Source: a bacterium (GTDB lineage Bacteria > SZUA-182 > SZUA-191 > JAJRXT01). From it: 64,000 nt of DNA. The notes beneath the pieces are model-generated. The model did no database searches, was not told the origin of the DNA, and saw only the letters and a program-made list of their open reading frames with translations. The stretch spans positions 1 to 64,000 of the forward strand of contig JAJRXT010000099.1 of assembly GCA_024276125.1 (NCBI GenBank), given 5' to 3'. The position numbers and the translations under genes were made by a program. This document shows positions 21,802-38,795 of this stretch, piece by piece; the stretch's first letter is position 1, and the number at the start of each line of letters is the position of its first letter.

Positions 21802-22053
21802 ATGGACAACGATACAGTAGTAATGAACGATATCACACCGCTTAAAAATGAAACAGCCGCTAAAAGTGAGCCTGCACCTAAAAGTGACTTTTTGTTACTT
21901 TCCAAGGAAGTGTTAAAAATGATACAGGACAAAAACATATTAAATGAGTTTTTCAAGATTACTGATATTCTAGCATCTAATGATACCTTCAAAAAAGTAT
22001 CAATTAAAGCCAACCTTAAAAACAAACAAATCTACTTTTTAATTCAATTATAG
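21802..22053 (+). CDS. Small orphan protein, paralogue 1
   Basis: 83 residues, not recognised. Residues 1-29 are variable and polar (starting MDNDTVVMNDITPLK). Residues 30-83 are highly conserved with the product of 31848..32111, including SDFLLxSKEVLK and the tail from TDILASNDTFKK to QIYFLIQL. No signal peptide, membrane segment or cysteine is present. It stands alone between repeats with its own AT-rich upstream region. Conservation of the C-terminal half in two unlinked copies argues that this is a real protein family. Confidence 0.75.
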   Translation: MDNDTVVMNDITPLKNETAAKSEPAPKSDFLLLSKEVLKMIQDKNILNEFFKITDILASNDTFKKVSIKANLKNKQIYFLIQL

Positions 22054-26298: not shown

Positions 26299-26726
26299 AA
26301 AGCCGCCCTCCATAACAGGATAAGTTTTATTTTGGGAGCCTCTTGCAAAAGCCCCCCAAAATGTCATTCCCGCAGTGATTTTAAGCGGGAATATATTTTT
26401 AACTCTTTAAAAAACCAGATATATGTATATGTTTCGGGGTGAGACACCCCGAAACATACAAACATACCTATTTGAGTTGACGCCGAAACCAAAGCCGTTT
26501 AATTTTCTTAGCTGTCATTCTGAATGAAACGAAGTGGAGTGAAGAATCTGCTCACGTATGCGGGTAGATTTTTCGGCCTTTGGCCTCAGAATGACGGCTA
26601 AGAAAAGGCTTTTAAGCTTAAGTCAACAGCATTGTTCCCTGACCATGGTGAGGGAACCAGATAAAGTTGTTCTTCTTAGCTCTTTTAGTATATCATACAT
26701 TAAGTTTTAACTCTAATTAAAATAAC

Positions 26727-26986
26727 TCATGTTACGCAAAAAAACTAACAACACCACCGTAGGGTGGATTAAGGGGCTTTTATATAACCGATCACCAAAA
26801 AATGAGCAAATAACACAAAACGCTCAAAAGATCGCCCCGAATCCACCACGCCTAGCGGCGAGCAATTTGCAGGCGTGGTGGGTCCACAACTACAAGACAA
26901 TGTATGCCTAACAGACATTTTGGGCTTTTTCATAATACGGGCTTGACCCACCCTACATTTATAAAAGCGGGTTTGCGTAACATGAA
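26727..26986. mobile_element. Family D miniature element with TAAAATAA duplications
   Basis: A 260-bp element with ends CTCATGTTACGCAAA and TTTGCGTAACATGAA. TAAAATAA stands on both sides (26719..26726 and 26987..26994). This and the copy at 11292 set the duplication length at 8 bp with AT-rich targets. Confidence 0.75.
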
Positions 26987-27117
26987 TAAAATAATTTTTA
27001 TAAAAAAGTAACTTTCTTGACTTAAGTCAAGGCGTATAATGTTTTTATCGGCTATTATTGCTAGTAGATGCAGATTAGTAAAGTTTAGGTTAATACCCGA
27101 ATTGTTCGGGTTACTAA

Positions 27118-27317
27118 CTCACGTTACGCAAACACCGCAGGGTGAATTAAGGGGTCTTATATAACAGGCATTCGTTATAAATTAAAATGGCTATTTGAGT
27201 AAGTGTGGTGGATCCGCAACTGTCAGAAAACGTAAACCCGGCATGTTTTTTTTAGGCTCTTTCCCAATATGGGCTTGATCCACCCTACATTTAAAAACAC
27301 GTTTTGCCTAAAGTGAG
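27118..27317. mobile_element. Shorter family D element
   Basis: Ends CTCACGTTACGCAAA and TTTTGCCTAAAGTGAG are inverted repeats with mismatches. The interior has 'gggtgaattaaggggt' and 'gggcttgatccaccctac'. No clear target duplication. It ends 37 bases before the ferredoxin-type gene and may carry part of its upstream region. Confidence 0.6.
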
Positions 27318-27354: not shown

Positions 27355-28068
27355 ATGGAGAGCGTATTAAGAAAAATAGTGCATATTGACGAGGAAAAGT
27401 GTAATGGCTGCGGATTGTGCGTACCGGCCTGCGCTGAAGGGGCTATTCAGATTATAGATGGTAAAGCCCGTTTGGTTGATGATAAATTCTGCGATGGTTT
27501 GGGCGCATGTCTGGGAGAATGCCCGCAGGACGCAATTATTATAGAAGAGCGCAAGGCGGTGGAATTTGACGAACAGGCGGCTGCCCTGCATGTAAAGCAG
27601 GCTGAAAACAAAAAGGTAACGCCCATATCGGCTTGTCCCGGGGCGGCGGTACAAAGTTTTAGCCCGTCAAGTAAAAGCGCTGCCATTACAAATCTACCCG
27701 CAAGGTCATATTTGGAAAATTGGCCGATTCAGTTACACCTAATACCGCCTCATGCGCCTTTTTTAAAGGATGCGGATTTACTTATATGCGCCGATTGCGT
27801 ACCCTTTGCCTATGCTGGTTTTCATCAGGAATTACTAAAGGATAAAACGCTTATAATTGCCTGTCCCAAGCTGGATGATGTATCGGTTTATATGGAAAAA
27901 TTACAACAAATCTTTAAAACGGCTAAACCCAAAAACATAACCATTCTACATATGGAAGTACCCTGCTGTTACGGGTTGGTTAATTTGGTAAAACAGGCGC
28001 TTAGTCTGTCGGGAGAACAAATTGACTTGCGGGAACAGGTAATTGGCGCTAAGGGAAACAAGCTGTGA
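27355..28068 (+). CDS. Ferredoxin-type 4Fe-4S protein
   Basis: 237 residues. Two cluster motifs lie at about 16-30 (CNGCGLCVPAC) and 46-60 (CDGLGACLGECP), giving a two-cluster ferredoxin head. The rest (about 75-237) is an alpha/beta domain with further cysteines (ISACPG, LICADCVP, IIACPKLDD, EVPCCYG) seen in anaerobe proteins that travel with CODH-like and hybrid-cluster genes. It is likely a cytoplasmic electron carrier or partner of the CODH-like protein. Its stop overlaps the next gene's start by four bases (GTGA). A GGAGGG site precedes the ATG. Confidence 0.85.
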   Translation: MESVLRKIVHIDEEKCNGCGLCVPACAEGAIQIIDGKARLVDDKFCDGLGACLGECPQDAIIIEERKAVEFDEQAAALHVKQAENKKVTPISACPGAAVQSFSPSSKSAAITNLPARSYLENWPIQLHLIPPHAPFLKDADLLICADCVPFAYAGFHQELLKDKTLIIACPKLDDVSVYMEKLQQIFKTAKPKNITILHMEVPCCYGLVNLVKQALSLSGEQIDLREQVIGAKGNKL

Positions 28069-28562
28069 GTAGCGCGAAAATAGACAAAGATAAGCTGATT
28101 GCCAAAATGGAAGCCTATTTTGGTGAAGATAAGCGCAGAATAAAACATGCTCATACGGTCGCTGACTATGCGCTGGAAATACATGAATCTGCCGGCGGGG
28201 ATTATAATGTAATCTTAGCCGCCGGTGCGCTGCATGATATTGGCATTCATGAGGCCGAGCGTAAGTATCAAAGCTGCGCCGGTCGTTATCAGGAAATAGA
28301 AGGGCCGCCGATTGCCCGGGATATATTAGAGCAAATGAATGTTGCGGAGGAGATTATAAATGAGGTATGTGAGATTATAGCTCATCACCATAACCCGGGG
28401 ATTATAAATACGCTTAATTTCAGGACGCTTTATGATGCCGATATGCTGGTTAATCTGGGCGATGAGGGGCGGGAGTATGATAAGGATAAAATGCAAAGGA
28501 TAATAGATAAGACATTTTTAACCCCTGCGGGTAAAAAAATAGCGCAGGAGCTGTTTTTGTAG
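28065..28562 (+). CDS. HD-domain phosphohydrolase
   Basis: 165 residues from a GTG coupled by a 4-base overlap to the ferredoxin gene. An HD fold is plain: HAHTVADYALEI (first His), GALHDIGIHEAE (His-Asp pair near residue 65) and IIAHHHNPG (near 105-115), then DADML. Such domains hydrolyse phosphate esters, often of nucleotides. Position between a ferredoxin and a CODH-like gene suggests a maturation or nucleotide-linked role, but no substrate can be named. Confidence 0.85.
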   Translation: MSSAKIDKDKLIAKMEAYFGEDKRRIKHAHTVADYALEIHESAGGDYNVILAAGALHDIGIHEAERKYQSCAGRYQEIEGPPIARDILEQMNVAEEIINEVCEIIAHHHNPGIINTLNFRTLYDADMLVNLGDEGREYDKDKMQRIIDKTFLTPAGKKIAQELFL

Positions 28563-28768
28563 GAAATACTTTATATTTCAGGGTGTCCCACCCCGAAACC
28601 AGTATCACTAAAAAGTAAACAATATCAATGTTTCGGCATGGGACATACCTAAACATAAAAAAGAATGCCGTGTCATTCTGAAACGCAGCGAAGAATCTGC
28701 CTGCATATGCGAGTAGATTCTTCAGCCTTCGGCTTCATAATGACAAGAACATTTAACGAAACCAACGC
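28563..28768. repeat. Repeats between the HD and CODH-like genes
   Basis: Two CCCCGAAAC-type palindromes (about 28577..28602 and 28628..28655) and a full GTCATTCTGA copy (28672..28744) separate genes that are otherwise arranged as an operon. Confidence 0.7.
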
Positions 28769-28780
28769 ATGGAGGATGAG

Positions 28781-30661
28781 ATGGACAAAGTAAGTCAGCA
28801 TGATAATATCAATCGTTTATATGACAAAGTAAGTCAGGATAATATGTCCAATGTAGCCGATCGCTACGAGGCGCAGGAAAAAGTACGCTGCCGTAATTAT
28901 TGTGATAAGGGATTAAGCTGTCAGTTGTGCAGCAACGGCCCCTGCCGCATTGTTCCCGGGCGTATTGAACGCGGGGTATGCGGTATTGACGCAAATGGTA
29001 TGATAATGCGTAATGTTTTGCACAAAAACAATATGGGAGTCGCCGCATATACCTATCATTGTAAAGATGCGGCCAAAACCTTGAAAGCTACGGCGCAGGG
29101 CAAGACGCCTTTTAGCATAAAAGATACGGCTAAACTGGATATGCTGGCCGCCGCCCTGGGGGTGGAAATCAATCAGGATACCAATGCCAAAGCCGTAGCT
29201 GTAGCTGATGCGGTGATTGCATCCTTGTCTCAGGACAGCGAGCAGGAATCGGTTATGGTAGATGCCTTTGCCCCGCAATCCCGTAAGGATATATGGCGCG
29301 GTTTGGGTATTTTACCGGGTGGTCCCTTAAATGAAATGATGGATATGGTTACGCGTTCTATGACCAATATTGACGGTGATTGGGTCTCATTGGCTAAATG
29401 TTCGCTGCGCCTAGGTATTGCCAGTACGTATGGGGCATTGATTCCCTTGGAGATTATGCAGGATATTTTGTTCGGCACTCCCACTCCGCATGAGGCCGAT
29501 GTTGATCTGGGTATTTTGGATGGCCGATATGTAAACATATTACCTAATGGTCATGAGCAGTTTGTTGGCGCCGCCCTGATTGAAGCTGCCCGTAAACCGG
29601 AGGTTCAGGCCAAAGCCAAAGCCGCCGGCGCTGCCGGTATTCATATTGTAGGCTCCATTGAAACCGGTCAGGAGCTGATGCAGCGCTATGCCTGCGATGA
29701 TGTGTTTGTAGGTCTTACCGGTAATTGGTTGAATCAGGAATATGTGCTGGCTACCGGTACGGTGGACTTGTTTGCTATGGATATGAATTGTTCCGTACCC
29801 TCTTTAAAGGAATACGCCGATAAATACGGGGTTACATTAGTCAGCGTATCCAGATTGGTGGCTGTTCCGGGAGTTACCGAGCGGATAGACTATGTGCCGG
29901 AGAAGGTAGAAGAGCAGGCGCTTGCCTTAATTGATTTGGCGATTGATAATTTCAAAGGGCGTAAGGGTAAAGCCACTGTGACCGGTTTAAAAAAGACCAA
30001 AATATTAACCGGTTTTTCCAATGAAGCGGTAGTCGCAGCATTAGGCGGCAGCCTTGATCCATTGCTTAATGTGATAAAAGACGGTACAATATTGGGAATC
30101 GCCGCTTTAGTAAGCTGTACCAGCTTAAAAAACGGCGGGCAGGATATAATAACCACGCAAGTGGCCAAAGAGCTTATTAAACGTAATATTTTGGTACTGT
30201 CCGCCGGCTGTGGTAACGGCGCCTGTCAGGTGGCCGGATTATGCTCTGTTTCCGCGCAAGAATTGGCAGGCGACGGCCTTAAGGCTGTTTGTAAACAATT
30301 GGGTATTCCGCCTGTTTTGTCTTTTGGTACCTGCGGTGATACGGGCCGCTTGTTGATGCTGGTTACTGCTGTAGCCGATGCTTTGGGAGTAGACCCTGCT
30401 CAATTGCCTGTTGCTGTTACAGCGCCTGAATATATGGAGCAAAAGGCCACGATTGACGCCTTTGGAGCGGTGGCATTCGGTTTATATACCCATGTATCAC
30501 CTGTTCCGCCGGTTAGCGGTTCGGCTGATGTAGTAAAATTGTTAACTCAGGATGTAGAAGGGCTTACCGGCGGTAAGATTGCGGTCGGCGATGATCCCGA
30601 GCAGATTGCAGAAGGAATAAAGGCGCATATTGAAGCAAAAAGAGCTGCTTTGGGAATATAG
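28781..30661 (+). CDS. Divergent Ni-Fe carbon monoxide dehydrogenase-like protein (CooS family)
   Basis: 626 residues; ATG 28781 is chosen because GGAGG lies 5 bases upstream. B-cluster cysteines are Cys47, Cys50, Cys55 and Cys67 (SCQLCSNGPCRI ... GVCG). For the D-cluster, the CooS pair is not conserved: Ser46 stands where the second Cys is expected, and Cys37 and Cys41 lie nearby. Of the C-cluster ligands, His258 (NGHEQF), Cys337 (MDMNCSVP), Cys446 (LVSCTS), Cys477 (SAGCGNG) and Cys518 (FGTCGD) are present. The 'GICCTG' cysteine is replaced by GSIETG (291-296), so CO oxidation is uncertain. It sits in a ferredoxin / HD / zinc-ribbon neighbourhood and has no cooC or acs gene beside it. The N-terminus repeats DKVSQ twice. 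Confidence 0.88.
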   Translation: MDKVSQHDNINRLYDKVSQDNMSNVADRYEAQEKVRCRNYCDKGLSCQLCSNGPCRIVPGRIERGVCGIDANGMIMRNVLHKNNMGVAAYTYHCKDAAKTLKATAQGKTPFSIKDTAKLDMLAAALGVEINQDTNAKAVAVADAVIASLSQDSEQESVMVDAFAPQSRKDIWRGLGILPGGPLNEMMDMVTRSMTNIDGDWVSLAKCSLRLGIASTYGALIPLEIMQDILFGTPTPHEADVDLGILDGRYVNILPNGHEQFVGAALIEAARKPEVQAKAKAAGAAGIHIVGSIETGQELMQRYACDDVFVGLTGNWLNQEYVLATGTVDLFAMDMNCSVPSLKEYADKYGVTLVSVSRLVAVPGVTERIDYVPEKVEEQALALIDLAIDNFKGRKGKATVTGLKKTKILTGFSNEAVVAALGGSLDPLLNVIKDGTILGIAALVSCTSLKNGGQDIITTQVAKELIKRNILVLSAGCGNGACQVAGLCSVSAQELAGDGLKAVCKQLGIPPVLSFGTCGDTGRLLMLVTAVADALGVDPAQLPVAVTAPEYMEQKATIDAFGAVAFGLYTHVSPVPPVSGSADVVKLLTQDVEGLTGGKIAVGDDPEQIAEGIKAHIEAKRAALGI

Positions 30662-31091: not shown

Positions 31092-31556
31092 ATGTCAAGT
31101 GGACGGTGCCCTGGACAAAATACTCAGTTTTGGGGCGCGGAGGATATATTTGAAGTAACCTGTCCGAGTTGTGGTCAGGCGGTAGAATTTTTTAAAGACG
31201 ATGCAAAGCGGACTTGTAAAAAATGCGGCAAGCGCCTGTTTAATCCCAGAATGAATTTTGGCTGCGCCAACTGGTGTCCTATGGCCAAGGAATGCTTGGG
31301 ACAAGAAAAATATGAAGGTTTAAGGGAGATTGCCGAGGCTGAAGCAAAGCGCAGGGCTGATTTTGACGCCTTGTTGGCTAGCATTGCGCCTGAAGATACG
31401 CAGGTTGAAAAAATATTCAGGAAATTATACTTACAAAACAGGGGTACAAACACCCTGTTTGACAGCAAAGAATTATTCTCTTTAGCTGAAGATGATCCCA
31501 ATTTATTTAAAAAAGCGACAGAATATTATACCCAATTTATTGAATCCAAGAAATAA
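31092..31556 (+). CDS. Zinc-ribbon protein of the CODH-like module
   Basis: 154 residues. Residues about 18-45 form a zinc ribbon (VTCPSCGQAVEFF ... RTCKKCGKRL). A second cysteine set follows in NFGCANWCPMAKECLG (about 55-71), a pattern that looks metal-binding. The remainder is helical and charged. The ribosome site is GGAGG. I recall similar small ribbons beside CODH-like or HD genes in anaerobes, but no function is established. It lies on the same strand 430 bases after the CODH-like gene, with repeats between. Confidence 0.7.
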   Translation: MSSGRCPGQNTQFWGAEDIFEVTCPSCGQAVEFFKDDAKRTCKKCGKRLFNPRMNFGCANWCPMAKECLGQEKYEGLREIAEAEAKRRADFDALLASIAPEDTQVEKIFRKLYLQNRGTNTLFDSKELFSLAEDDPNLFKKATEYYTQFIESKK

Positions 31557-31847: not shown

Positions 31848-32111
31848 TTACAATTGTATTAAAAAGTAAATCTGCCTGCTCTTAAGGTTGGCTTTTATTG
31901 AGGCCTTTTTAAAGGTATCATTGGATGCTAAAATATCTGTAAGCTGGAAAAATTCCTTTAGAATATTCTTTTCTTGTATTAATTTTAATACTTCTTTTGA
32001 CATCAATAAAAAATCACTCTTGGATGCGGGCTCATTTTTACTGCCGGAAGAGCTGCTGGTTTCGCCTTTAAGCGGCGTAATGTAATTTATTATAATAGTG
32101 TCATTGTCCAT
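31848..32111 (-). CDS. Small orphan protein, paralogue 2
   Basis: 87 residues, same family as the product of 21802..22053, from which it differs mainly by a Ser-rich insert near residues 19-25. Shared blocks are MDNDT at the start, SDFLLxSKEVLK, and the tail TDILASNDTFKK ... QIYFLIQL. Its stop codon lies 15 bases from the end of tRNA-Gly, which it faces. There is no recognisable domain, signal peptide or membrane segment. Confidence 0.75.
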   Translation of the reverse strand: MDNDTIIINYITPLKGETSSSSGSKNEPASKSDFLLMSKEVLKLIQEKNILKEFFQLTDILASNDTFKKASIKANLKSRQIYFLIQL

Positions 32112-33154: not shown

Positions 33155-33727
33155 CTAACGAAAGAATTCAAAATCACAAGGGTCTATGCCTTCTACGCGT
33201 ACAATATCCATATCTAACATCCAAGATTGATATCTAACCGGGCCATTATAGGCATTTGGGCTGTGAAAATAGAAAATATCAGGTAGAGGATTGGACGATT
33301 CTGGAGCATTAACAACATCTTTTGCAATTCTGATACAATTATCCCAAGCTTTTTTTTCTGTAGGATTTTTTTGAATTTCCTTTATTAAAAGACTGTCATT
33401 TGTATCCCTAGCAAGATAAGGGCTAAACTGTCCCGGGTCAGTAACTACGTCTTGATAGGTCGTACCCCACTTGCCAAAGGGGTTTTCCCTGCGATTTCTT
33501 GCCACCCAACCAACGGCTTCCCTCGCCTTATCATCCAGCTTTGCATCCCTTGCTTCCCAAAAGATCATTTTTGCCAGCCAATACTCATCTTCAGGGATAG
33601 ATACCAAAGCGCCATTTTCTAGGGATACTCTAGGATACTCTTTCTCCAGAGACTCCTTGTCTGCCCCGCTTAATCTATCATAATATTTCTGCTTATCTTT
33701 TGACAACATAAATCTAAGTTCAGACAT
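33155..33727 (-). CDS. Cell-wall hydrolase (SleB/Hydrolase_2-like)
   Basis: 190 residues. The fold resembles the SleB-type cell-wall hydrolase (PF07486): MIFWEARDAKLDDKAREAVGWVARNR with the likely catalytic Glu at about residue 56, then QFSPYLARD and a late YFHSPNA. No signal peptide is seen. Its place at the end of the phage structural series suggests a lytic or tail-associated peptidoglycan enzyme. A lone domestic amidase is possible. Confidence 0.75.
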   Translation of the reverse strand: MSELRFMLSKDKQKYYDRLSGADKESLEKEYPRVSLENGALVSIPEDEYWLAKMIFWEARDAKLDDKAREAVGWVARNRRENPFGKWGTTYQDVVTDPGQFSPYLARDTNDSLLIKEIQKNPTEKKAWDNCIRIAKDVVNAPESSNPLPDIFYFHSPNAYNGPVRYQSWMLDMDIVRVEGIDPCDFEFFR

Positions 33728-33807
33728 TAAATAACCTACCTTTTCCTTAATTAACCCAAGTTGCTGCCTATGTGGGTTTGTTTTTAGAAATATTTAGTTT
33801 TATACCT

Positions 33808-33894
33808 GTCATTGCCAACGCGGCGCAACGGAGTGAAGAATCTCCTCGCTATTGTGTGGGGGGGAGATTCTTCGGTTTTCGGTCTCAGAATGAC
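33808..33894. repeat. GTCATTCTGA-family copy
   Basis: 87-bp palindrome, GTCATTGCC-type left arm, between the hydrolase and tail genes. There is an 'gaagaatct ... agattcttc' core. Confidence 0.75.
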
Positions 33895-33934
33895 AAAAAG
33901 GATAACTCACATTATAGGCAGCAATTTGAGTTAA

Positions 33935-34393
33935 TTATATTGGCGTATAGCGGATATATTCTTCTACCTTAAGTTGTATTCGGCATTGGTGCATCAGGAT
34001 TCCGGCGTAAGGATGGGGAGAAAGTACGTCCACTTGCGGCGGGTAACTCTTAAGGCAGGTTCCATTTAAATTGTTGTGCGTCCGCAATGTTGAGCGTATG
34101 GATTCAATCAAGTCCTGAAAGGTCTTTTCGCTTTCTATATTATCCTTTAGTCCATAGTAACCTTTAATGGCAAGGGTATGGGTGGCAATATTCACTGCTC
34201 CGGCAGCTTGTAGACGTTCTCTCGTATCTATCCGCGTTATCATCCAGCCGTTTATTTTGTTATTATCAGTATTAAAGCAGTTCAAAAACGTACGCCAGTC
34301 ATTAGTCCAGCGCTCATAGTCATGTACCTTGCCGATACCGGATACGGTTTCTAACAGGTTTTTTATTTCAGTGCGGATTTGAGCCAGTCCCAT
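33935..34393 (-). CDS. Putative phage neck/tail-completion protein
   Basis: 152 residues with an AAGGGG site. It is a small alpha/beta protein (MGLAQIRTEIKNLLETVSGIGKV ... TFQDLIESIRSTLRTHNNLNG). Size, order and overall look fit tail-terminator or completion proteins that sit next to the tail tube gene. It lies 10 bases after the tail-tube-like gene, so the two are cotranslated. Assignment rests on position more than on motif. Confidence 0.55.
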   Translation of the reverse strand: MGLAQIRTEIKNLLETVSGIGKVHDYERWTNDWRTFLNCFNTDNNKINGWMITRIDTRERLQAAGAVNIATHTLAIKGYYGLKDNIESEKTFQDLIESIRSTLRTHNNLNGTCLKSYPPQVDVLSPHPYAGILMHQCRIQLKVEEYIRYTPI

Positions 34394-34403
34394 GATTTAC
34401 CCC

Positions 34404-35330
34404 TTATGTCAACACAATACTTAACTCATCGTCGCCCGTATTGCGGTTTAGTTCAAAATCAGCGCCCAGAGTGCGTATGTCGCCCCTATCGGCTAAAGAA
34501 AGCCGGCTGTAGCGGCATTTGGGAGCGCTGATGTTGATGATATTACCAGCGGTCGTCCCCAAGGTTAAGCTTAATGCGCCCTCGCTTCCGCTGCGCCATT
34601 TATCGAATATATCGTATTGGACAACCAGCGGTAATTCAGGATCAAGCGATCCCGCCGGACGCCTGCCGGTTATCGCTGCGCTTAGGTATCCGCTTTGTTT
34701 GTTTACATCAGAGCGCAATTGCATATTATTATTGATATTCAATTCCAATTTTTCTATTAATGCCTGATAGCTGTCTATAGAAAAGGCGGCATTAGAAAAT
34801 ATTTTCGGTTCGGTAGTATCATAGCTTACACCGGCGAGTATTGCCGCATCTTCCACCGAAAAATCAGCGCCGGTAAATACAAAGCTGGCTGTGGCCGGCG
34901 CTCCCGCTGAAAAATTAAAAGCTACGCTGCCGCGGGCGCCCCATAGTTTTAAAAGCAGCCCGTCCATATATACTGATAAGGTAATACTTGGTATGCCGGC
35001 TGATGTCGGGGTATAGGTTACGCTTATGCCTGCGGCAATATCCTCGTAAAAACCGCAGACTTTAAGCAGCTTACCCCATTCGGGCGCAACTCCGGCAGCG
35101 CCTGAGCCTTTAAGCTGTACATCAAAGTTTATTTTTCCAGAACGCCTGCCGGTAAGCGATTTATAGCGCGATAAATCTGAGCTAATAAGATTTTGTTCAT
35201 GAGTCTCAATTTGCGGTGTGAAATTGGGATTTATAATTAACAAGGCATCTGCGGCTGCCGGTGTCTCCGGGCTGCCCTCTGATGCTTCAAGCTTAGCTGC
35301 TAATTGGGTTTTTTGTACCAAAATGGGCAT
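34404..35330 (-). CDS. Phage tail-tube-like protein
   Basis: 308 residues from ATG 35330, which has AAGGAGA 5 bases upstream; longer starts read into repeat sequence. A beta-rich protein with the layout of phage tail tube proteins: it begins PILVQKTQLAAKLEASEGSPETP, then SLTGRRSGKINFDVQLKGSG and a Thr/Ser-rich beta domain, and closes with ALSLTLGTTAGNIINISAPK. It would form the stacked rings of a siphovirus- or myovirus-like tail. No tape-measure or baseplate genes follow. Confidence 0.7.
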   Translation of the reverse strand: MPILVQKTQLAAKLEASEGSPETPAAADALLIINPNFTPQIETHEQNLISSDLSRYKSLTGRRSGKINFDVQLKGSGAAGVAPEWGKLLKVCGFYEDIAAGISVTYTPTSAGIPSITLSVYMDGLLLKLWGARGSVAFNFSAGAPATASFVFTGADFSVEDAAILAGVSYDTTEPKIFSNAAFSIDSYQALIEKLELNINNNMQLRSDVNKQSGYLSAAITGRRPAGSLDPELPLVVQYDIFDKWRSGSEGALSLTLGTTAGNIINISAPKCRYSRLSLADRGDIRTLGADFELNRNTGDDELSIVLT

Positions 35331-35402
35331 ACTTATCTCCTTAAAAACAAAATGTTCTATGGGCGAATTTTGTGGCTGTAAAGACAAAGCTCTTTTTAGC
35401 CT

Positions 35403-35471
35403 GTCATTCTGGAGCGCAGCGAAGAATCTTTCAACCTATGTAAGCAGACCCTTCGCTTCACTCAGGGTGAC
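35403..35471. repeat. GTCATTCTGA-family copy
   Basis: 69-bp palindrome between phage-like genes; right arm CAGGGTGACAG. It shows the uninterrupted form of the site occupied by an insert at 9690..9808. Confidence 0.75.
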
Positions 35472-35501
35472 AGCTTACGACAATTTAAACTTGACACGCC
35501 C

Positions 35502-36176
35502 CTAGCGTTGTTTGCGCGGGTGATTCAGTCTGTCTTCTCCCCAGGGGTAATTTACATCCCAGTCGGCAACGCCGGTAGCCGCGCCTATTCCTTTTTGTTT
35601 ACCCATTAGGCGGTTGTATCTTTGCTGTAATTCCTTAGCGCGTTGGGCGTATAGATTGGATTTACTTTGAAAATCCACAATATCAACTTCCAAACCCGAG
35701 TCTATATTCTGAGCATAGGAGCGCGACAGCGTCTCACAACATATAGCGGCGGTAAGCAACGCTAAGGCATCCTGCATGGAGACCGGAATGTTATCTAAGC
35801 TGGTTTTGGTAAAGGGAGTGGTATAAGTCAGGCGGATAGTTTCCGCTGCATTGGGAGTATGCCTTAAAAAGCGTAGCTTTTCTCCTGAAGGCGTTTTATA
35901 CAAATTGTAGTCATCAGCTTCCAGATAAACCGGTATTTGTTTACCCACTGGATATTCCACCTGTCTTAACCATGATACCGCCTCTATCCAGTCTGACGGC
36001 AGATTGTATAGATAACTTCCATCACCGGGGATATCGGCAATTTTTACATGTGGATAATCTTTACTAAAATAGCCTAAGGCTTCTAAAATAAAATCGGTAA
36101 GCTCTTCAGATTTAAGCCTGCCTGCCTCATCCTGAATAAGCCTTTTAACCTTGTTTTTTAAGTCGATGAGCGGCAT
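35502..36176 (-). CDS. Phage head-tail connector-like protein
   Basis: 224 residues with an AAGGAG site. Residues 1-25 (DLKNKVKRLIQDEAGRLKSE) and the following helices recall the small adaptor proteins that bind under the portal, and a central beta region (LPSDWIEAVSWLRQVEYP) matches the DUF-type neck proteins of this size. It lies between the capsid and tail-tube genes, where such an adaptor is expected. Function inferred from order and fold impression. Confidence 0.6.
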   Translation of the reverse strand: MPLIDLKNKVKRLIQDEAGRLKSEELTDFILEALGYFSKDYPHVKIADIPGDGSYLYNLPSDWIEAVSWLRQVEYPVGKQIPVYLEADDYNLYKTPSGEKLRFLRHTPNAAETIRLTYTTPFTKTSLDNIPVSMQDALALLTAAICCETLSRSYAQNIDSGLEVDIVDFQSKSNLYAQRAKELQQRYNRLMGKQKGIGAATGVADWDVNYPWGEDRLNHPRKQR

Positions 36177-36214
36177 TAATTTACTTTTCTCCTTATGAAA
36201 TATGCTTATTTTCT

Positions 36215-36296
36215 GTCATTCTGGAGCGGAGCGAAGAATCTTCTCGCTTACGGATGCGGGAGATTCTTCACTGCGCTTCGCTTCGTTCAGAATGAC
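36215..36296. repeat. GTCATTCTGA-family copy plus CCCCGAAAC palindrome
   Basis: 82-bp palindrome followed by a TGTTTCGGGGTGTCTCACC-type palindrome at about 36320..36347. Confidence 0.75.
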
Positions 36297-36375
36297 AGCT
36301 AAAGTTAGTCAGACTCGTTTATGTTTCGGGGTGTCTCACCCCGAAACTGTTTTGCGTTGCATATATTGCTTATTG

Positions 36376-36558
36376 CTATGGCTGTTCTCCGCGCCATAGC
36401 TCGCGATCGTATAATAATCTTTGTCTTAACATACATTGCTCATCCACTGCATCATACAGCGGGCAGCTGGCATTGGTGTTTTCAGCTAAAATTGCAACAC
36501 AGGTTTTACTGGTAGTACCAGCGGATGAGAATGGACAGTTATAAGTCGGCGCCGGCAT
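36376..36558 (-). CDS. Small cysteine-containing phage-block protein
   Basis: 60 residues, not recognised. It has AAGGAGA 6 bases before the ATG and sits in line between the capsid and connector genes, which supports a real gene. Four cysteines (YNCPF, KTCVA, ASCPLY, EQCML) are spread through it. It could be a head-fibre, decoration or scaffolding-remnant protein; nothing decides. Confidence 0.55.
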   Translation of the reverse strand: MPAPTYNCPFSSAGTTSKTCVAILAENTNASCPLYDAVDEQCMLRQRLLYDRELWRGEQP

Positions 36559-36592
36559 AAATTATCTCCTTAATGTATTTTGTATATGCCAT

Positions 36593-36698
36593 GTCATTCT
36601 GAGGCCGTAGGCCGAAGAATCTGCTCGCATATGCAAGTAGATTCTTCACGGAGTTTATCCTTGAGCAAAACGAAGGGCTGCGCTTCATTCAGAATGAC
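36593..36698. repeat. GTCATTCTGA-family copy with long arm
   Basis: 106-bp copy that includes the 'cggagtttatcc ... cgaagggctgcgc' extension shared with 46185..46291 and 63215..63321. It is followed by two CCCCGAAAC-type palindromes to about 36780. Confidence 0.75.
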
Positions 36699-36791
36699 AA
36701 TTTTTTATGTTTCGGGGTGTCTCACCCCGAAACAGTTTGCTCATTGCAGGTATGTTTCGGCATGAGACATACCGAAACATACCCAATAAAT

Positions 36792-38795
36792 CTAAACCAC
36801 AACAGACTTGTACATACCGCGGTGGTCTAATACGCAGATACCGTATATATGCCGGATTTTGTAGGTTATTTTATCCTGCGAAAACATGGAGCCGGAGGTC
36901 GGTTGATCTTGTACGAATAGTTCCGGCTCTTCATTGCCGTTAAAAAAACCTACTTCTATAGTGGGGCAATCCCCCGGGTCGCAGATAAGCGCCCAGTCAT
37001 TAGCGTCAGTCCAGTAGGGTACGACTACTACCCCCAGACCATATGTTGCATGAATATTGGGTTCAGTACCCGCATTATTGGTAACTCCGATTACAGTAGA
37101 CGAGGCTGCCAGCCGGTAGGCTATATCTTCTAATTCCAAGGGTACAAGCAGCCATTTGGGAGTAAGCCCCAAAATATCGGCGGTATCTCCATAGGCGGTC
37201 TGTTCGCTCATAGCTATTTTGGAGCTAAGCAATGAGTTGGCGGCTAAAGCGCTGCTGCCCAAATTATTATGCGCAGCATCGAATAATGGTGTTGCATCAT
37301 ATGAAGTATTGTTATTATTTACAATAACATCAAGTACGCTCTTATATAACGTACGAGCGGCGGCGCGTCCCAATTTTTGCGGTATACGTCTTATTGCGCC
37401 TACATCGTCATTTGCGATCATCTCCAGAGTCAAATCTTCTAAGCCGCCCTTTTTGGCAATTGTAAAGGTAGCCTCCTCATCGGCGGGCGAGGTAAGCGAC
37501 AGATAACTAGCAGCCTCAGCTACTGCCGGCAGTGTCCCGTATCCCCCGATACGCATACGGCGGTTGGTTCTAAAATCGCGTACTGACGTAATATCGGATA
37601 CTATCTTGCGCCAATCATCCAAACCCGGGGTATGGTATTCGCTAAGCATGGTGCGGGTTATGGATTCGCCTAAAACCTCCGCCCATGATGAGCTGGTTAA
37701 GGATTCTGTAAACTTTTTTAAATTACGCGCATCACGCAGTTGACCGCTTAGAGAACTGTCTCCGGTTATGGTTACATAGGCTTCCCTGAATGATCGAAAA
37801 CGCGGTATTCCGTCAATATCACGGTTGGCGAAAAAACCGTCCAGCGCCTTTAAGGTACGCTGTCGCTCTCCTGTAACATGGGTAATACCCGCCCCTTTTA
37901 CATTATGAGAACCGGAAATACGAGCCAGGAAATTACGCTCTTCAGATACAGCCTCGCGTAAATCTTCTTCCGTAAACACCTGATTGCGAAACCGCCGGTT
38001 AATTTTTTGTCTGGCAAGCGGCGGCAGACCGCTTTCGTGCAGCGCTTCGGCTAAGAATAATCTGCACTTGGTAAGCGTTAGTTCCTCTTCCAAAGCATAA
38101 AGCCTATCTGTCAGACCGGTTTTATTTGGAGCCTGTTGAGGATGACGCGAAACCGCCTCTGTATATAATTTAAGCGCTTGCTGCTGGTCGATGTTTTTCA
38201 TATCCAGCCCCCCGTAAAGATCGGGCGCATTTTGTTCTATAAAGTTTAGCATTTCTTCAAGCATAAATTCTTCCTCCCTTAATTTGGGGCCGCTTGCGGC
38301 CACTAATTTGGCAATCCGGCCGCCGGCCGCCGGATTAACCACCACATCCACTGTATCCACCTTATGGATGCACTCTACAAATTTGATTATGCCGTTCCGG
38401 TTACGTGCCAGACGGCTTTCGCCTTGAGCGACAATGGAAAACCCTACTATATCGCGCTTGCCGCACCGCCAGGCATCCAGCATCAAAAGACGCAGCCAGT
38501 CGGCGGCCTCTGATATGTGGAAACAGGCCTTTATTTTATCTTCGGTAAATCGGGGATTACTGAACCAGCCTACAATGTTTCTTACATTTTTATTTGTATC
38601 CTTTACATGCTCCCCGTCGGCTCTGGCCAGAGCGCGTATCCCGTCAAACAGGGGAGCCGCCTGCTTTAAAACTTTAGGTGAATAATTAAAACCATTACCG
38701 GATAAACCGGCTTGGATAATTACCACCTCCCATTCGCTCCCCTTTTTATGTGTAGATTCAATGAGCGGAGTATCAATTTTTAATTGATTCATCAT
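36792..38795 (-). CDS. Fused prohead protease and Mu-type major capsid protein
   Basis: 667 residues. Residues about 20-180 look like a prohead protease domain (EWEVVIIQAGLSGNGFNYSP, HISEAADWLRLL, then GFSIVAQGES). A helical linker of about 100 residues follows, of the kind used as scaffold. Residues about 310-660 resemble the Mu gpT major head subunit (LEDLTLEMIANDDVGAIRRI, YDATPLFDAAHNNLGSSAL, KWLLVPLELE, WALICDPGDCPTIEVGF). Self-cleavage would release the capsid subunit during head assembly. The fusion is compact and in frame, so heads could be assembled from a single polypeptide. Confidence 0.8.
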   Translation of the reverse strand: MMNQLKIDTPLIESTHKKGSEWEVVIIQAGLSGNGFNYSPKVLKQAAPLFDGIRALARADGEHVKDTNKNVRNIVGWFSNPRFTEDKIKACFHISEAADWLRLLMLDAWRCGKRDIVGFSIVAQGESRLARNRNGIIKFVECIHKVDTVDVVVNPAAGGRIAKLVAASGPKLREEEFMLEEMLNFIEQNAPDLYGGLDMKNIDQQQALKLYTEAVSRHPQQAPNKTGLTDRLYALEEELTLTKCRLFLAEALHESGLPPLARQKINRRFRNQVFTEEDLREAVSEERNFLARISGSHNVKGAGITHVTGERQRTLKALDGFFANRDIDGIPRFRSFREAYVTITGDSSLSGQLRDARNLKKFTESLTSSSWAEVLGESITRTMLSEYHTPGLDDWRKIVSDITSVRDFRTNRRMRIGGYGTLPAVAEAASYLSLTSPADEEATFTIAKKGGLEDLTLEMIANDDVGAIRRIPQKLGRAAARTLYKSVLDVIVNNNNTSYDATPLFDAAHNNLGSSALAANSLLSSKIAMSEQTAYGDTADILGLTPKWLLVPLELEDIAYRLAASSTVIGVTNNAGTEPNIHATYGLGVVVVPYWTDANDWALICDPGDCPTIEVGFFNGNEEPELFVQDQPTSGSMFSQDKITYKIRHIYGICVLDHRGMYKSVVV

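Follow-up and report, generated by a model that had tools for sequence, protein, structure and literature searches.

Structural group D-1 of the CO dehydrogenase (CODH)-like proteins is defined by a Cys-to-Glu exchange together with Tyr and Lys at the acid-base positions (Inoue et al. 2019, PMC6344411). Its characterised member, CooS-V of Carboxydothermus hydrogenoformans (CooS-V_Ch), contains a nickel-free [4Fe-3S-nO] hybrid cluster and neither oxidises CO nor reduces CO2 (Jeoung et al. 2022, PMC9311411). The same study reported that CooS-V_Ch reduces hydroxylamine slowly and NO not above background, that its midpoint potentials lie about 300 mV below those of hybrid cluster protein (Hcp), that the C295E exchange in CODH-II abolishes CO oxidation, and that the C. 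hydrogenoformans genome also encodes an Hcp; in the part of the paper available to us, the assay description mentions artificial donors and no cognate FrdX. For a D-1 protein of M. acetivorans, a genetic hint of a part in CO oxidation is cited by Inoue et al. (PMC6344411). A redox-sensing role in organisms with an active CODH has been proposed for clade D (PMC13056359), and a 2026 survey reported co-occurrence of clade D as a whole with Hcp and noted that experimental proof of a stress role for CooS-V-type proteins is missing. The gene frdX belongs to the HcpR regulon (PMC1274295, PMC12915319), for which the consensus wyTTGACnnnnGTCAArw was published for delta-proteobacteria (PMC1274295), and in C. 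difficile FrdX and Hcp confer protection against NO (PMC12915319).

The locus studied here lies in a 64,000-nucleotide stretch of bacterial DNA (contig JAJRXT010000099.1 of assembly GCA_024276125.1, positions 1 to 64,000; referred to as the window). The following features were assigned.

27017..27030, + strand: palindrome TTGACTTAAGTCAA, a predicted HcpR-type activator box (perfect TTGAC-N4-GTCAA)
27053..27058, + strand: TATTAT, a predicted -10 element lying exactly where an activator box centred at -41.5 (class II) would require it
27355..28068, + strand: frdX-like gene, 237 aa, with a two-[4Fe-4S] ferredoxin domain and a C-terminal domain, a likely electron donor (Fer4 domains; homologues beside hcp)
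28065..28562, + strand: HD-domain gene (PF01966), 165 aa, with a GTG start, overlapping frdX
28781..30661, + strand: cooS-V, a CODH-like gene of structural group D-1, 626 aa, for a predicted hybrid-cluster enzyme (match, alignments, tree and fold)
28889..28903, + strand: codons of C37-x3-C41, predicted subunit-bridging D-cluster cysteines, a CxxxC variant of type III (alignments)
29660..29662, + strand: codon of Glu294, in place of the Fe1-binding cysteine, Cys295 of CODH-II (alignments)
31092..31556, + strand: zinc-ribbon gene (RCPGQ...CPSCGQ...CKKCG), 154 aa (identity to a zinc-ribbon/HD fusion)

The cooS-V reading frame is intact and uninterrupted, with a possible alternative start at 28769, 12 bases upstream. 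A first-pass annotation of this gene had described a full-length CooS fold. In line with this, the protein matched PF03063 (the Prismane/CO dehydrogenase family) over its full length with 493 bits and TIGR01702 with 792 bits (cut-off, 478). Its best match in the PDB was CooS-V_Ch (7b7q; 754 bits, with the next at 395), and its AlphaFold model (mean pLDDT, 91.6) had a TM score of 0.98 to CooS-V_Ch (7b9a/7b7q) and of about 0.95 to true CODHs. Phylogeny, proposed in the annotation as a check, placed the window protein, 80 relatives, the kin protein of genome G006 and CooS-V_Ch in one clade (n = 83; support, 100) apart from the canonical CODHs; the tree of 101 proteins was quickly built and midpoint-rooted, with groups D-2 to D-4 left out. 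Judged from these comparisons, the protein is a member of the described group D-1, of the CooS-V type, and the exchange for which the annotation had presented it as an unusual variant is the one that defines this group (PMC6344411). With the Hcp model TIGR01703 it scored 43.8 bits against a curated cut-off of 360.8. It differs from Hcp in its CODH descent, its 626 residues, its extended N-terminal domain and its expected homodimer, and identity to Hcp is about 22-26% over its C-terminal half; it is not an Hcp by descent but may work like one. The second CODH of the window genome (contig C21; L081, 1378-3315; motif GICCTANE) grouped with the canonical CODHs in the same tree, and its nearest solved relative is the CODH of Thermococcus sp. 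AM4.

At the active site, most of the earlier reading held. Five of the six canonical C-cluster ligands are kept (H258, C337, C446, C477 and C518), and the cysteine that binds the pendant iron is replaced, by Glu294, in a GSIETGQE motif that reads GICCTGNE in canonical CODHs. No other cysteine aligned with position 294, which excludes a substitute cysteine. Glutamate was found at this position in 80 of the 80 best relatives, excluding a sequencing error or a chance loss of the cysteine, and forms an invariant column in a 39-sequence alignment, as do Y90 (Tyr at the position of the acid-base His), K555 (the retained Lys) and all of the hybrid-cluster ligands. A functional Ni,Fe-CODH has a C-cluster of His and five Cys and an acid-base His, where the window protein has E294 and Y90. 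It shares its fold and the five ligands with the Ni,Fe-CODHs of clades E and F (CODH-II, DvCODH) but lacks the Fe1 cysteine and has Glu, Asn, Tyr and EQK in place of their Cys, Gln, His and SEK or HEK; the Asn (Asn336), the EQK motif and the hybrid-cluster ligands are common to Hcp. With CooS-V_Ch it shares 56% identity, the Cys-to-Glu exchange, the hybrid-cluster ligands, and Tyr and Lys at the acid-base positions. Glu294 and the Hcp glutamate were not aligned by MAFFT, owing to a gap; the two are taken as equivalent on the basis of published structures (PMC9311411). The annotation's expectation of an altered or different reaction finds its counterpart in the characterised D-1 member, with its nickel-free hybrid cluster and lack of CO activity (PMC9311411). 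The change in active-site chemistry is therefore already known; the surroundings of the gene and its promoter appear new.

The claim that the D-cluster pair is not conserved proved wrong. C37 and C41 are invariant among the relatives and align with the [2Fe-2S]-binding CxxC of CooS-V_Ch, with one extra residue between them; with CxxxC present, loss of the D-cluster is excluded. Together with C47 they follow a Cys-x3-Cys-x5-Cys spacing, compared with Cys-x2-Cys-x5-Cys in type III of group D-1, and on sequence this looks like a minor additional variation on the known CxxC type. The extra residue is common to the window, L001, L002, G006 and six Methanomethylicia loci (L074-L079). In the D-1 tree CxxxC turns up in two distinct places, as would result from insertion on two occasions or from a transfer between Methanomethylicia and bacteria. 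The N-terminal B/D-cluster stretch is the less confident part of the AlphaFold model (block pLDDT, 64-73), and the model therefore says little on the geometry of CxxxC.

What proved most informative, namely the FrdX gene upstream and the promoter of HcpR type, lies outside the interval covered by the first-pass annotation. The neighbourhood was compared among nine genomes of one phylum, including that of the window (G000). In G001 and G003 a homologue of the window ferredoxin gene stands close to a true hcp with a zinc-ribbon/HD fusion gene between them, and in G005 a zinc-ribbon/HD-frdX pair and cupin-hcp lie on separate contigs. The HD gene of the window is 38-47% identical to the C-terminal half of this fusion, which accompanies hcp or frdX in G001, G002, G003 and G005, and the zinc-ribbon gene is 57-65% identical to its N-terminal ~66 residues. 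In the window these partners are retained, although as two genes for the two parts of the fusion, and cooS-V stands where its kin have hcp. The same gene order was found in G007, from another genus of the family, with CooS-V 81% identical, 27 bases between HD and cooS-V and a downstream zinc-ribbon ortholog of 65% identity; G006 has a short ferredoxin gene with cooS-V. No hcp above the cut-off was found in the window genome (94% complete), G006 or G007, and hcp or a fragment of it was present in five of the six other genomes. By context and architecture, the window ferredoxin is the likely counterpart of FrdX of the HcpR regulon. The locus matches the HcpR-type hcp operon in its partners (frdX, HD and zinc ribbon), box, spacing and regulator family. 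It differs from CooS-V_Ch, whose genome encodes Hcp: here no hcp was found, and cooS-V accompanies frdX downstream of a box of the HcpR type. The gap between HD and cooS-V in the window is 218 bases long and contains repeats, so that co-transcription of these two genes is putative.

Several other features of these loci were observed. Contig C15 of G002 (L128) carries an operon remnant consisting of a cupin fragment, zinc-ribbon/HD and frdX, with no hcp. On contig C499 of G004 (L119), hcp is reduced to its first 75 residues, by an insertion or an assembly break, and adjoins two small opposite-strand genes resembling a nucleotidyltransferase/HEPN pair. Imperfect repeats of 34-65 bases occur in the window at 26429-26595, 26918-26965, 27250-27297 (before frdX) and 28573-28744 (in the HD/cooS-V gap), and bring the frdX leader to about 290 bases, longer than in G007. 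A probable prophage lies beside the operon on the - strand (33155-38795), with genes for a head maturation protease/major head protein (36792-38795), a minor tail protein (34404-35387) and an endolysin-like protein (33155-33727). Two paralogous small proteins of 83 and 87 aa, 73% identical and without a PHROG match, flank the region in opposite orientation (21802-22053, +; 31848-32111, -).

The palindrome TTGACTTAAGTCAA fits the core of the delta-proteobacterial HcpR consensus. It was the sole match in the window, even with one mismatch allowed, and one of three sites in the 2.98-Mb genome; the probability of a box no more than 400 bases from any one operon start is 0.0002 to 0.002 per genome. 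An exact box also lies upstream of frdX-cooS-V in G007, of the ferredoxin-cooS-V pair in G006, and of cupin-hcp in G001, G004 and G005, and a one-mismatch box precedes cupin-hcp in G003. In the window, transcription is predicted to start at about 27065. At exactly the class II spacing, six of the six exact-box operons of the phylum have a hexamer that departs from TATAAT at one position or none (mean mismatch, 0.83, versus at least 2.67 at every other offset). Five loci of Desulfurobacteriaceae and one of an actinobacterium also have boxes before cooS-V, with weaker -10 matches. No box was found in the 319 bases available before hcp of G008. On contig C118 of this genome, an Rrf2-family regulator gene directly precedes frdX (L124, 4046-4483).

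Exactly one CRP-type HTH protein above the cut-off was found in seven of the nine genomes, the exceptions being G002, which has neither hcp nor cooS-V, and G008. In the window genome, the single protein with an HTH_Crp_2 domain above the cut-off is encoded on contig C33 (14924-15619); it is 40-44% identical to the regulators of the hcp genomes, and most of these share its ETLSR recognition-helix segment. An FNR-type oxygen sensor was rejected as the regulator, as the match of this protein to the Fnr model begins at profile position 34, past the expected N-terminal Fe-S region, which we take to lie before that position. Judged from this sequence, a signal other than FNR-type oxygen sensing is likelier.

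To what extent does this arrangement extend across group D-1? FrdX homologues were found near cooS-V in the loci of 21 of the 80 relatives (Armatimonadota, Thermoplasmatota, Methanoperedens, Nitrospirota and Bacillota), CRP/FNR genes in 12 of the 80, and cupins recurred too. Among 31 D-1 genomes searched whole, one encodes Hcp and 24 a FrdX homologue, which in 19 of the 24 lies on the same contig close to cooS-V, a proportion biased by a sample that was partly chosen for FrdX linkage and includes many drafts. In 100 genomes of a Bacillota class, Hcp was found in 74; FrdX lies beside Hcp in 20, and two genomes lacking Hcp have it next to cooS-V. The D-1 proteins at least 64% identical to that of the window came from genomes without Hcp (3/3), those 54-58% identical from genomes with Hcp (13/13), usually with no adjacent frdX, and one at 51% identity from a genome without Hcp. 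It is therefore a subgroup of D-1 that shows displacement of Hcp, and the proposed role need not apply to the whole group; the reported co-occurrence of clade D with Hcp fits these other Bacillota. In ANME/Methanosarcinales (L033, L036, L038, L040, L043, L055, L058 and L059), genes for a flavodiiron protein, near flavorubredoxin models, and for rubrerythrin lie beside the D-1 cooS in a stress-type neighbourhood.

Collectively, these findings suggest that cooS-V probably encodes a hybrid-cluster reductase that takes the place of Hcp in an HcpR-type nitrosative-stress operon. This reading draws on the partners, box and -10 spacing of hcp that accompany cooS-V where no hcp was found; on the kinship with CooS-V_Ch, the hybrid-cluster ligands and the Asn336 and EQK shared with Hcp; on the protection against NO by FrdX and Hcp in C. 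difficile; and on the single CRP-type regulator in most of the nine genomes and the scarcity of Hcp in the D-1 genomes. By analogy with CooS-V_Ch, the enzyme would contain a nickel-free, redox-switching Fe/S/O hybrid cluster held by H258, E294, C337, C446, C477, C518 and E553 and no Ni-Fe C-cluster. Under NO or nitrite stress, the CRP/FNR-family regulator may bind the box at -41.5 and switch on frdX-HD-cooS-V-zinc-ribbon. Electrons would then pass from FrdX through the bridging cluster at C37/C41 and the B-cluster to the hybrid cluster, where NO, hydroxylamine or a related reactive nitrogen species would be reduced. The main counter-evidence is that CooS-V_Ch, assayed alone, did not reduce NO above background; the Hcp-bearing genomes of the 54-58% kin, the CO-related hint from M. 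acetivorans and the 218-base gap also count against it. To the wider proposal, that this D-1 subgroup is a second, independently evolved hybrid-cluster enzyme that displaced Hcp in the HcpR/FrdX operon and acts as an FrdX-dependent NO or hydroxylamine reductase, we give about an even chance.

The slow turnover of hydroxylamine, the undetected NO reduction and the low potentials of CooS-V_Ch would also suit a hybrid-cluster enzyme with another role, such as a reductase of hydroxylamine, peroxide or another oxidised substrate, or a redox sensor for organisms with an active CODH. The window genome does encode a canonical CODH, and the flavodiiron protein and rubrerythrin genes at some D-1 loci may mean oxidative stress. 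However, such a role leaves unexplained why cooS-V stands in the place of hcp, with a FrdX partner and a box of HcpR consensus in the same phylum, and we regard it as rather unlikely. That the protein is a working CODH with a Glu-modified C-cluster is very improbable. Its CODH fold, its five ligands and the genetic hint cited for M. acetivorans (PMC6344411) would allow it, but CooS-V_Ch, which carries the same substitution, has neither Ni nor CO activity, C295E leaves CODH-II unable to oxidise CO, the acid-base His is replaced by Tyr, and the genome already has a canonical CODH. Among the ORFs adjoining cooS-V, no ACS-, cooC- or hydrogenase-like gene was seen, on which ground a CO-metabolism operon was also rejected. 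Loss of the canonical cysteine could alternatively mark a degenerating CODH gene without function, a prospect that is next to negligible: the ORF is intact, the cluster residues are invariant across bacteria and archaea, and the other-genus ortholog has kept 81% identity, gene order and promoter. Conservation of this kind excludes a degraded gene.

We found no description of cooS-V replacing hcp within an operon of HcpR type, with a shared promoter and a FrdX partner, in the open-access literature, subscription papers and preprints lying outside the scope of the search. The sole link found there between CooS and FrdX or HcpR was a study of D. desulfuricans that lists a cooS, its clade unstated, at 2.01 with NO; two surveys of CODH gene context reported different neighbours or saw no clear pattern. 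For the physiological role of CooS-V-type proteins, a regulated operon in which cooS-V displaces hcp offers a clear lead from genomics, and supplies an electron donor, FrdX, and a candidate inducer, NO or nitrite. If the Hcp-replacement reading is true, the same unusual cluster would have arisen twice and would be interchangeable in one pathway, and many of the annotated 'CO dehydrogenases' of metagenomes should not be counted as CO oxidisers.
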